NCBI GenBank assembly: GCA_944372455.1
Contig: CALVZF010000009.1
Coordinates: forward strand, 1-40,441
Length of the DNA stretch: 40,441 bases
DNA from: an uncultured Bacilli bacterium
GTDB taxonomy: Bacteria > Bacillota_I > Bacilli_A > RF39 > UBA660
Reading direction: 5' to 3'
This document shows, in pieces, positions 605-16,754 of this stretch. Position numbers and translations under genes: made by a program. The notes under the pieces are model-generated. The model was not told the DNA's origin and did no database searches. It saw only the letters and a list, made by a program, of their open reading frames with translations. Position 1 is the first letter of the stretch. Every line of letters begins with the position of its first letter.

Positions 605-1648
605 TCAATCTATTTTTAATATCTCATTATATAGTTTTTCTACGTTTCTGTGTGTATAAATTTTTTCTGTAATATCTGTTATTGAGTGACCTACAATTCT
701 TTTTAAAATATATTCATCTGCACCTGCGTCTTTCATTTTTGTTATGAATGTATGTCTACCATCGTATGGTGTATGATTAAAATTTAATTCATTCATTAAC
801 TTATCAAATCTTCTTTTAAATTTTCCATAATTAAATTTATCTATAATACTTGTAAATGGATAATCGTTCTCTTTATCATAGAAATATTCCATTAAATGTT
901 TAATTTTTGGATGTATTGGTATAATTCTATCTTTTCCAGCTTCTGTTTTGGAACCTGTTATAAAGTAATTATCTTCTATGAAAATATTGTTTTTTTCCGT
1001 TGTGAAGACTTCATTAGGCCTTGTACCACTATATGCAAAAATTAAAGCTAATTTTACTATATCATTATACTGTAATCCCCAAAGAATAGATAACTCTTCA
1101 ACAGTAAATGGAGTATGTTTATCAGATTTTTTCTTTTCTCCTACCTTTAATTTATCAGCTGGGTTATTTGCTATAGGTAACTCGTATTCATTTATTGCAC
1201 AATCAAAGATTTTCTTGCATACTGTTTTAATATTTCCTTTTGCAGTGTATCCTAAATCACTATCATCAATAATTGTTTGCATTTTTTTATATTTTAATTC
1301 TAATAAAATATCATTATAAAGTTTTTTACAATGATTTTTATATACAGAAGATAACCCTTTTAAATTACTTTCACTCATTTTACCTTGTTCAACAAGTACT
1401 TCCAATTGATTTAAAACACCATTTTCCCAAATATATGAGAAAGTTAAATTTCTATAATCTAAATTATATGGATTTCCATGATAATCGGCAAGTAATTTTA
1501 ATCCTTCAGTTCTTGACTTTACATAACCTATCGTTTTTCTAATTTGCTTGCCATTTTCGTCCCATCCATCAGTTATATATACCCAATATGGGCATCTTCG
1601 TTTTCCTGATAATTTACTTATACTACCATAACCATTAGGCAACTTCAT
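605..1648 (-). CDS. int: Tyrosine recombinase / phage integrase
   Basis: This 347-aa integrase catalyses prophage integration and excision. The N-terminal part (about 1-60) resembles the AP2-like arm-binding domain (GYGSISKLSGKRR, then YWVYITDGWDENGK), followed by a core-binding SAM-like domain and the catalytic domain. Catalytic residues are visible: R in SGTRPNEV, R in YDGRHTF, H in VGHS and the nucleophile Y in KIYTHR. I start at ATG 1646-1648, where AAAAGGAG lies at proper spacing, rather than at an upstream in-frame ATG. The gene abuts the left arm repeats and attL, the standard place for int. It is the last gene of the leftward lysogeny module. Confidence 0.95.
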   Translation of the reverse strand: MKLPNGYGSISKLSGKRRCPYWVYITDGWDENGKQIRKTIGYVKSRTEGLKLLADYHGNPYNLDYRNLTFSYIWENGVLNQLEVLVEQGKMSESNLKGLSSVYKNHCKKLYNDILLELKYKKMQTIIDDSDLGYTAKGNIKTVCKKIFDCAINEYELPIANNPADKLKVGEKKKSDKHTPFTVEELSILWGLQYNDIVKLALIFAYSGTRPNEVFTTEKNNIFIEDNYFITGSKTEAGKDRIIPIHPKIKHLMEYFYDKENDYPFTSIIDKFNYGKFKRRFDKLMNELNFNHTPYDGRHTFITKMKDAGADEYILKRIVGHSITDITEKIYTHRNVEKLYNEILKID

Positions 1649-1664
1649 AATATCACTCCTTTTA

Positions 1665-1693
1665 TTGCACAATTTATAAAATTTTGCTATAAT
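1665..1693 (+). promoter_or_regulatory. Candidate rightward promoter between int and the nuclease gene
   Basis: TTGCAC (1665-1670), a 17-nt spacer and TATAAT (1688-1693) form a good sigma-A-type promoter on the plus strand, in the gap between two minus-strand genes. It would start RNA near 1700, directly before two hairpins. Confidence 0.55.
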
Positions 1694-1699
1694 TTAGAG

Positions 1700-1777
1700 T
1701 ATAGAAAAACAATTTATCGTGGTAGATAATTTTTTCTATACTTAACTCTTAACTGTTGGCGCAGTTAGGAGTTTTTT
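1700..1777 (+). ncRNA. Candidate short RNA / bidirectional terminator between int and nuclease genes
   Basis: Downstream of the promoter are a hairpin (1700-1709 with 1731-1740, perfect 10 bp, extended inside) and a terminator (aactc-t-taactg 1744-1755 with cagtta-g-gagtt 1762-1773, then TTTTTT). A transcript of about 78 nt would result. The same hairpins read on the minus strand could instead end the nuclease mRNA. No ORF is present. Existence as an independent RNA is inferred. Confidence 0.45.
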
Positions 1778-2355
1778 CATACATATATTTCATTTTCAAT
1801 ATCATATTCATCTGCTGGAACAAAAATTATTTCATTCATATATAAAGGTACCTTATATTTTGTCAAACTATTTTCTCTATTATTTACCATAAAACTTTGT
1901 GGAGCACAATATATTTTATCATTGTTACTATTAAGTTCTTTAAGTCCTAATAAGCAATACATAATTTCATAAATTTTTAAGAGACCGTAATCTCCATCAT
2001 ACATACTTCCTGGTACTTTTTCTTTTAGATTATATAATGTAGTGCTTTCATCTTTCAATAAATCTAATAGTTTTGGAAACCATTCAATCCTATATTTTAG
2101 CGTATCTTTTTTTACTATTTGATTTCTAAGAATATTATCATATTTTTCTATATTCTTTTTTATATGTTTATACTGTTTTTCTTTAGTTTTTATATAACTT
2201 GGTAGAAAAGTATCAAAATGTATTTTATGTAGTCCAACTAAATGATAAAAATTTTCATCTCTAAATTTTATAATTATTCTACCCTTTTGTCCTCTATCAA
2301 TAATAAAAATATATTTTTTTAATTCTTCAAATGTATTGATTAATTTTTGTAACAT
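1777..2355 (-). CDS. PBECR4-like (RelE/barnase-fold) nuclease, candidate toxin
   Basis: This 192-aa protein carries the block ENFYHLVGLHKI near residues 36-47. I associate it with the PBECR4 family, a phage group within the barnase/EndoU/colicin E5-D/RelE-like RNase fold, where such proteins are thought to cut RNA. The later KIYEIMYCLLGLK and NEIIFVPADE segments fit the beta-strand-rich rest of that fold. I start at ATG 2353-2355 with GAAAGG about 11 bases upstream; GTG 2362-2364 is possible but too close to the SD. Its start lies about 20 bases after a terminator that ends a structured RNA, the same order as in type III toxin-antitoxin loci. It may be a superinfection-defence toxin or a lysogeny gene; family assignment is from memory of motifs. 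Confidence 0.6.
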   Translation of the reverse strand: MLQKLINTFEELKKYIFIIDRGQKGRIIIKFRDENFYHLVGLHKIHFDTFLPSYIKTKEKQYKHIKKNIEKYDNILRNQIVKKDTLKYRIEWFPKLLDLLKDESTTLYNLKEKVPGSMYDGDYGLLKIYEIMYCLLGLKELNSNNDKIYCAPQSFMVNNRENSLTKYKVPLYMNEIIFVPADEYDIENEIYV

Positions 2356-2373
2356 ATACTGCACTACCTTTCA

Positions 2374-2406
2374 AAATAAAAAGGGATTTATCATTTGATA
2401 AATCCC
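2374..2406 (-). terminator. Terminator between structured RNA and nuclease gene
   Basis: An 11-bp perfect stem gggatttatca / tgataaatccc (2383-2393 with 2396-2406) with a 2-nt loop is followed on the minus strand by a U-rich run (2374-2382). It should release most transcripts from the promoter at 2546-2574 before the nuclease gene, letting only a fraction read through. Confidence 0.8.
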
Positions 2407-2540
2407 ACATAGTAGCTGCCCGATCTGTATCGGGCTAAGTGTCTTCAATTTTTCGTTTTACCTTTTCAGGTCGCCGAAGCTAGGCTGGGGCTACTACCTC
2501 CCGTCATTAATAGTATAACATAAAAACTATACTATTATTA
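2374..2540 (-). ncRNA. Structured RNA upstream of the nuclease gene
   Basis: Minus-strand region without an ORF, with its own promoter and terminator. Visible helices in RNA order: an outer closing stem tagtagc/gctacta (2490-2496 with 2410-2416); a GCC/GGC hairpin; acct-GAAA-aggt with a GNRA tetraloop; and gcccgat-acag-atcgggc (2418-2435). Its GC content is clearly above that of its surroundings, typical of a functional RNA in an AT-rich genome. I do not recognise the family. Tandem repeats typical of ToxI are not seen. The 5' end near 2540 is predicted from the promoter. Confidence 0.65.
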
Positions 2541-2545
2541 CTAAA

Positions 2546-2574
2546 ATTATACCACACTGTAAAAAAAGTGTAAA
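2546..2574 (-). promoter_or_regulatory. Promoter of the structured RNA
   Basis: On the minus strand TTTACA (2574-2569), an exact 17-nt spacer and TATAAT (2551-2546) form a near-consensus promoter. Transcription should begin around 2540 and run into the structured RNA. Confidence 0.75.
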
Positions 2575-2651: not shown

Positions 2652-2969
2652 TTATTTTTCATTTATTTCATCAATGTATTTTAATATATTTTCAATATAC
2701 ATATCAGCTTCATCTTCTACATTTTCAATACTAAATTCTAATATACATTTATCTAAATGACATAATTCTAAATGGGCAAATTCGTGAAGAATAGCTCTTT
2801 TTTTATTTTCCTTTGATAAATTCCAATTGATAACTACTAAACACACATCTCTATATTTAAGTAGAAAACCATATATTCTTCTAGGAAGCTTTTTATATAT
2901 GATATTAGCATTGTAATAGTTAAGATAATCTTGTTCATTAACTTCGCCACTTAATAAGTTAATAAGCAC
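2652..2969 (-). CDS. ImmA/IrrE-like zinc metallopeptidase
   Basis: This 105-aa protein has a clear HEFAHLELCH motif (HExxH plus a downstream H), the signature of ImmA/IrrE peptidases, which cleave phage or ICE repressors during induction. It lies directly behind the repressor gene, the usual partner pairing. I start at GTG 2967-2969 because AGGAGG lies 8 bases upstream; other in-frame starts overlap the SD. Its role in repressor inactivation is inferred from family and position. A second HExxH protein occurs at 15633. Confidence 0.85.
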   Translation of the reverse strand: MLINLLSGEVNEQDYLNYYNANIIYKKLPRRIYGFLLKYRDVCLVVINWNLSKENKKRAILHEFAHLELCHLDKCILEFSIENVEDEADMYIENILKYIDEINEK

Positions 2970-3004
2970 TAGCAACACCTCCTAAAGCACCGATACTGCT
3001 GTGC

Positions 3005-3364
3005 TTATTTATCTAATTCTTTATCTATATCTTTCTTTAATGCATTTATTATTCCTAATACTGCTTTTTTATCTTCATCTGATAAATCTTTAGCTTTACT
3101 AAATAAAATATTATCTATTTCGCTATTATCATGTTCTAAATTTCTATATTTGCTTCTGCCAATTAAGTAGTCAACCGAAACATCAAAATAATCAGCTATA
3201 TAATCTAACATTTCTGGAGCAGGAGTAGATTGATGACTTTCCCATTTTGCAATTAATGGTTGTGAAACATCAAGTTCTTCTGCTATTTTATCTTGTGAAA
3301 TGTTTTTTTCCATTCTTAACATTTTAAAAATATCTCCAAACATTTTATATTCATTTATTATCAT
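3005..3364 (-). CDS. XRE-family repressor (cI-like)
   Basis: This 119-aa DNA-binding protein has an HTH_3 domain at about residues 7-60 (LRMEKNISQDKIAEELDVSQPLIAKWESHQSTPAPEML reads as the helix-turn-helix). The C-terminal part is short and charged, with no LexA-type peptidase domain, which fits inactivation by the neighbouring ImmA-like protease. ATG 3362-3364 is preceded by AGGAGGGG. It is divergent from the Cro-like gene at 3823, and palindromes lie in the shared control region. Expected function: keeps early promoters off in the lysogen. Confidence 0.9.
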   Translation of the reverse strand: MIINEYKMFGDIFKMLRMEKNISQDKIAEELDVSQPLIAKWESHQSTPAPEMLDYIADYFDVSVDYLIGRSKYRNLEHDNSEIDNILFSKAKDLSDEDKKAVLGIINALKKDIDKELDK

Positions 3365-3378
3365 AATTTCCCCTCCTA

Positions 3379-3392
3379 GATAACATGTTATC
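3379..3392. promoter_or_regulatory. Palindrome upstream of the repressor, candidate operator
   Basis: A perfect 14-bp palindrome, gataacatgttatc, lies just upstream of the repressor SD. Position and symmetry suggest autoregulation by the repressor or Cro-like protein. Confidence 0.55.
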
Positions 3393-3433
3393 ACAAATTG
3401 TAATAAAAAAATAGATAAAAATTAAAAAAAGTA

Positions 3434-16680: not shown

Positions 16681-16754
16681 CGCAGGAGTAGTGTAATAGT
16701 AGCATACAAGTCTCTTTAGCTTGTGGAGTGGTGCAAATCCAACTTCTGCAACCA
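16681..16754 (+). tRNA. Initiator-like tRNA with anticodon CUU (reads AAG)
   Basis: 74-nt tRNA-like sequence, cgcagga ... ttctgcaacca. The acceptor has six pairs plus position C1 facing A72, a mismatch that marks bacterial initiator tRNAs; the end is A73 plus encoded CCA. The anticodon arm is a 5-bp stem (caagt 16707-16711 with gcttg 16719-16723) and the loop ctCTTta, anticodon 16714-16716, compared with ctCATaa in tRNA-fMet. A T-loop tgcaaat and the end gcaacca also resemble tRNA-fMet. Deviations: 3-nt linker before a GUGU/GCAU D-stem, small variable loop, only three good T-stem pairs, and no GGG/CCC in the anticodon stem. A degenerate elongator tRNA-Lys or pseudo-tRNA is the alternative. 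It directly precedes the small terminase gene, which starts with AAG. Confidence 0.7.

Follow-up and report, generated by a model that had tools for sequence, protein, structure and literature searches.

The window, the whole 40,441-nt stretch of DNA analysed here, contains a prophage with integrase, repressor, terminase, portal, head and tape-measure genes. Within it, the minus strand carries in succession a promoter region, a structured RNA, an intrinsic terminator and a gene for a PBECR4 nuclease, the gene being flanked by the integrase on one side and by the ImmA and CI genes on the other (Table 1). A sequence-only reading of this DNA had suggested a possible prophage module, and the prophage setting is borne out by the phage genes around PBECR4. 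The 23S and 5S rRNA genes (1-490) immediately precede the prophage, a notable integration site, and a weak Rfam tRNA (16682-16750, 39 bits), unreported by ARAGORN, stands directly before the terminase gene.

Table 1. Features of the PBECR4 locus and its flanks (positions in the window).
Feature	Position	Strand	Details
Phage integrase (context)	605..1672	-	PF00589, E 1.8e-12
PBECR4 nuclease, putative toxin, 192 aa from ATG 2355	1777..2355	-	PF18813
Structured RNA, putative antitoxin, ~130 nt	2376..2505	-	predicted start near GACGGGAG to end of terminator U-tract
Intrinsic terminator between RNA and gene	2378..2406	-	stem 2406-2383, then U-tract
Closing stem P1, 3′ strand	2410..2416	-	4/7 pairs with double-sided changes
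P4 hairpin GCCCGAU-ACAG-AUCGGGC	2418..2435	-	7/7 pairs with double-sided changes
P3 variable hairpin ACCU-GAAA-AGGU	2460..2471	-	3/4 pairs with double-sided changes
P2 hairpin GCC-UAGCUUC-GGC	2473..2485	-	identical in 23/23 RNAs
Closing stem P1, 5′ strand	2490..2496	-	pairs with 2410-2416
Inverted repeat TAATAGTATAG...CTATACTATTA	2508..2537	-	overlaps proximal -10; from fold analysis
Proximal extended -10 TGTTATACT	2512..2520	-	9 nt before GGGAG
Distal promoter-like site TTTACA-17-TATAAT	2546..2574	-	11/12 consensus with TG
ImmA/IrrE-like metallopeptidase (context)	2652..2978	-	phrog_87, E 1e-6; Pfam M78 slightly below cut-off
CI-like HTH repressor (context)	3005..3394	-	HTH_3, E 5e-12

The gene product matches PF18813 above the curated cut-off (E 9e-10, 39.6 bits, cut-off 27), which confirms the PBECR4-like nuclease proposed by the sequence-only reading. 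Translation probably starts at ATG 2355 and not at GTG 2364, since relatives begin with MLQ. The protein was modelled by AlphaFold with a pLDDT of 91.8 and a pTM of 0.88, and the best VIA structural alignments of the model are to the BECR-fold RNases colicin D, BrnT and RelE and to a toxin from a toxin-antitoxin complex, all of them weak (Z at most 3.7). Foldseek returned nothing significant from the PDB (T4 RegB at E 1.4) and, as the best viral match, one unnamed protein from BFVD (A0A4D6ASU0, E 5e-6, TM 0.54). Throughout the clade of the window protein, His38 and Ser154 do not vary, and the His stays unchanged in a wider set as well. In a survey of phage polyvalent proteins, PBECR domains are predicted to be RNases, having a His in an N-terminal helix and a C-terminal Thr or Ser (PMC5512222). 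By sequence comparison, the clade His and Ser correspond to this site, and a catalytic role for them is an inference. In Pfam, the protein matched PBECR4 alone; it had no match among NCBIfam and PADLOC models, and none of the ToxN-type models and PDB sequences was related to it. With tblastn, neither phages nor plasmids gave a match to the window protein, and phages gave none to the L008 protein.

The stretch 2376-2540, which includes the terminator as well as the inverted repeat upstream, folds at -52.3 kcal/mol (z -5.3), with 0 of 200 shuffled sequences as good, indicating that the folded RNA is real. Its core, positions 2409-2508, is the part matched by covariance model R1. The closing stem and the 7-bp hairpin anticipated from the letters alone were both found (P1 and P4), as was a small hairpin after GGCG (P3), for which the earlier label of GNRA hairpin holds only as a 4-bp stem with a GAAA loop. 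The invariant core comprises GGGAG, the closing stem, CCCAGCCUANCUUCGGCG, a hairpin, an A-rich strand and GAAG. In addition, we propose that the CUUC of the P2 loop could pair with GAAG 2443-2446 as a pseudoknot. This pairing is kept in about 95% of cells, yet it is invariant; because the pseudoknot and P2 hardly vary, neither gains covariation support. Inspection by eye raised HDV-like and twister-like ribozymes as candidate folds, but they were set aside, the former because the strand for the HDV P1 pairing is absent. Rfam, searched at gathering and at relaxed thresholds, contains no family that matches the window RNA, so a match to an unrelated RNA family, which would have counted against a new RNA-nuclease pair, did not appear.

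The link between this RNA and the nuclease is conserved. The same RNA lies directly upstream of PBECR4 in 16/16 distinct loci found for the clade (the window and L025-L039), the relatives having been collected by protein search first and the RNA sought afterwards. Most of these loci belong to Bacilli of the gut and rumen and one to a Clostridia bin, and together they span many genera. The contig of L038 ends within the PBECR4 gene, and the PBECR4 reading frame of L039 is broken (from 6004) with the upstream RNA intact, possibly through an assembly error. Scanning 193 genomes of the family with R1 recovered the RNA in seven, namely all five with a clade PBECR4 and two without; no clade PBECR4 toxin lacking the RNA was seen. 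Covariation was assessed on sets of 17 and 23 relatives, also used for R1. Among 23 RNAs fitted to R1, 14 of the 25 pairs changed on both sides, where shuffles gave 7.0; of the cells, 94.1% were paired versus at most 54% when the structure was slid. Fitting biases this alignment towards R1; an earlier MAFFT alignment, not fitted to the model, gives agreeing covariation. Stems P1, P3 and P4 thus covary among relatives. Tandem repeats, which the sequence-only reading had rightly found missing from the window RNA, are absent from its 15 relatives too.

The evidence on transcription start concerns two sites. The near-consensus promoter put forward earlier does exist as the distal site, and a comparable 11/12 distal site occurs in L032, L033 and L059, but this AT-rich stretch shows no excess of promoter-like sites (25 against 21.5 expected). 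A -10-like hexamer stands at a near-fixed distance before GGGAG in the PBECR4-linked loci and is absent from the phage copies described below. Judged from sequence, the proximal extended -10 appears to be the better-supported start; the conserved hexamer, which relatives linked to PBECR4 carry some 9 nt ahead of GGGAG, places the RNA start probably near GACGGGAG. The inverted repeat that overlaps it is a possible operator or 5′ hairpin. The terminator called by the sequence-only reading is present as a stem followed by a U-tract.

PBECR4 genes are sparse (13 of 392 genomes in a PF18813 search, a model that overlooks some members of the window clade, such as that in G004), and the PBECR4 loci recovered from other families with PF18813 contain no copy of the window RNA. 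In most distant PBECR4 loci, the gene follows a promoter, a stretch that resembles an RNA, and a terminator. Specifically, a terminator-like hairpin at no more than 90 nt was found in 14/26 other PBECR4 loci versus 12/243 control ORFs (Fisher p 6e-10), and fold z-scores separate the upstream regions from controls only weakly (p 0.026). Near-identical direct repeats (at least 23 matches in a 28-base window) occur in 9/27 PBECR4 upstream regions versus 2/140 control ORFs. The repeat-bearing regions include L007, L011, L016, L080, L081 and L083, and the plasmid loci L074 (Enterococcus faecium), L077 (Macrococcoides) and L078 (Pediococcus); the repeats are two-copy, with a copy spacing of 52-83 nt. 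Tandem repeats are also present in the PBECR4 loci L088 and L096. The covariation of the repeat hairpins comes partly from selection, the units having been chosen by eye. With the conserved link, an RNA new to Rfam, and distant PBECR4 genes that have repeats and terminators, the proposal of an RNA-nuclease pair in type III order gains support beyond the window.

Several further observations concern these distant loci. PBECR4 is common on Enterococcus plasmids (92 plasmid records), and L074 (NZ_OR234015.1), with its two-copy repeat, is on a plasmid named vanA; no clear upstream RNA was found for the plasmid PBECR4 genes L075 and L076, where one was looked for. Loci L009, L012, L020 and L082 seemingly share another RNA, which is single-copy and has a GGTAGAC-like stem; two of these loci, L012 and L020, are on one contig. 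In L016 (1380-1510), the PBECR4 frame seems broken and the upstream RNA intact, an assembly error not being excluded. A PBECR4 subfamily (L017, L084-L086) is without upstream RNA; by eye, its neighbours look like ffh, plus rpsP for L017, and the subfamily may have a housekeeping role at an ffh/rpsP-type locus.

Three of the distant loci (L008, L010, L014) carry the Rfam RNA drum (RF02958) directly upstream of PBECR4, at 46-60 bits against a gathering score of 43. Drum above the cut-off occurs in 2 of 382 genomes of the phylum, and both copies adjoin PBECR4; a further hit in G394 was rejected as below cut-off and within an ORF. Drum thus occupies the same slot as the window RNA, with a terminator behind it, but its model fails to match the window, even at E 10. 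We found no paper giving a function for drum.

RNAs of the window type also occur without the nuclease. G132 contains a solitary RNA with its terminator and no PBECR4. In L040, L041, L042, L046, L047, L048 and a 129-kb contig of G591, the RNA lies just before a gene of 275-276 aa, without a terminator between the two, and in the phage contigs examined the large terminase and portal genes follow this gene. In the 136-kb phage G569, the RNA is within a cluster of about 24 tRNAs with tmRNA, ROOL and OLE, and in contig C7 of G163 it sits between ROOL and tRNA-Gln. PBECR4 was not found in the phage records with window-type RNA; this absence is somewhat soft, because PF18813 missed a clade member in G004. 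BLASTN of the RNA against phages gave short AT-rich chance pieces or nothing.

These copies bear on the main rival explanation, in which the RNA is a cis-acting element, that is, a put- or EAR-like processive antiterminator, or a leader or riboswitch that sets how often transcription passes the terminator and enters the nuclease gene. The order of promoter, RNA, terminator and gene is compatible with such an element, and so is the phage group in which the RNA forms the leader of a terminase operon. However, the RNAs beside tRNAs in two phage contigs have no ORF directly downstream, the solitary copy has a terminator and no gene to control, and distant PBECR4 genes are preceded by unrelated RNAs, some with tandem repeats, which fits a protein ligand better than an element that binds RNA polymerase. 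We therefore consider a cis-acting role unlikely.

A second RNA, recognised by an independent repeat-type pattern, behaves in a similar way. It forms RNA, terminator and PBECR4 in L088, L092/L093 and L096, stands with a terminator and without PBECR4 in L090 and L094, and is alone inside tRNA arrays in L087 (155 kb) and L091 (154 kb), the latter with GOLLD and skipping-rope RNAs nearby. Matches of the pattern in L045, L089, L095 and L097 were rejected as coding. The genes beside the solitary copies look, by eye, Fic/Doc-type (L094) and Panacea-like (L090). Together with the window-type RNA, two unrelated PBECR4-linked RNA types stand alone in the tRNA arrays of large phages, each on the basis of two large-phage contigs that carry it in or beside tRNA or large-RNA arrays; most of the phage evidence is from metagenome contigs. 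Occurrence in phage RNA arrays would also be expected of an ordinary phage RNA with an unknown role of its own, like ROOL, GOLLD or OLE, that is found beside PBECR4 through descent only. The association in every one of the 16 clade loci over many genera, the strongly conserved invariant core, and the parallel pairs of PBECR4 with unrelated RNAs leave this explanation with next to no credibility.

In type III toxin-antitoxin systems, a promoter is followed by tandem repeats, a Rho-independent terminator and the toxin, and phages escape these systems by means of pseudo-ToxI RNAs (PMC5086642). The window resembles ToxIN, CptIN and TenpIN in having an RNA, then an intrinsic terminator, then a nuclease gene in one promoter region, and some PBECR4 loci share with them tandem RNA repeats, in two copies. 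In contrast, the window RNA is a single copy of about 130 nt, and PBECR4 is a putative BECR-fold family that, in the model and PDB sequence searches, showed no sequence relation to ToxN, CptN or TenpN. Because its RNA has no tandem repeats, the window module is type III-like and not a strict member of these families. Among working systems, AbiF-RCd22 of a C. difficile prophage comes closest; in it, a structured RNA neutralises the toxin through direct binding, similar to type III (PMC12373285); here too, a prophage bears a toxin with an associated structured RNA, but AbiF is an Abi_2 protein linked to Cas13, whereas the window has only PBECR4, of another family. In AvcID, which acts against phage, an RNA antitoxin is paired with a toxin other than ToxN, namely AvcD, which is a deoxycytidylate deaminase (PMC10511110) and not a PBECR4 protein. 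PBECR domains of the same class are carried by phage polyvalent proteins, and solo phage versions are noted in the accessible part of that survey, which does not mention RNA partners (PMC5512222); the window PBECR4 is a solo gene too, accompanied by an RNA. No literature linking PBECR4 to an RNA was found; subscription papers and preprints were outside the search, and priority is not assured.

The order of RNA, terminator and RNase, the RNA-only loci, the repeats of relatives and the phage copies fit an RNA antitoxin and a toxin freed on infection, and in our judgement the window RNA and PBECR4 probably form a type III-like toxin-antitoxin module of the prophage. Toxicity, neutralisation and defence are inferred in this proposal, as are RNA-protein binding and the trigger, without expression, binding or toxicity data. 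The RNA would fold around its invariant core, bind the PBECR4 protein and block its RNase site. The terminator would yield mostly RNA and little toxin mRNA, so that the lysogen would be safe. An incoming phage that stops host transcription would leave the RNA unreplaced, and the freed RNase would halt the infection or the cell, while phages with their own RNA copy would keep the toxin blocked. The phage copies are thus probably decoy antitoxins, a role that is likewise inferred. The same copies could instead serve as a recognised infection signal if the RNA were an activator, guide or sensor and the protein were inactive alone, with the RNA or its phage copy turning the nuclease on. We regard this as very unlikely, given that a conserved terminator favouring RNA over protein suits an inhibitor, that the tandem repeats resemble known RNA antitoxins (PMC5086642), and that solitary RNA copies are tolerated.

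Whether the antitoxin reading extends to PBECR4 as a whole, as a large family of RNA-neutralised toxins with several unrelated RNA antitoxins, whose spare RNAs large phages routinely carry as antidotes, is a question on which we find the evidence evenly balanced. If the antitoxin reading is true, a nuclease family known by name only and the orphan Rfam RNA drum would each gain a function, the class of RNA antitoxins would gain a toxin with a putative BECR fold (RelE/colicin D-type), and the locus would offer a natural test of whether phage tRNA arrays hold RNA antidotes. Furthermore, if large phages carry spare antitoxin RNAs in their tRNA/ROOL/GOLLD arrays, some orphan structured RNAs would be explained. 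In L067 (G569) and L049, unnamed structured-looking stretches lie between tRNAs, near ROOL, OLE and tmRNA, some of which stretches may be further decoys or RNAs of an unknown kind.
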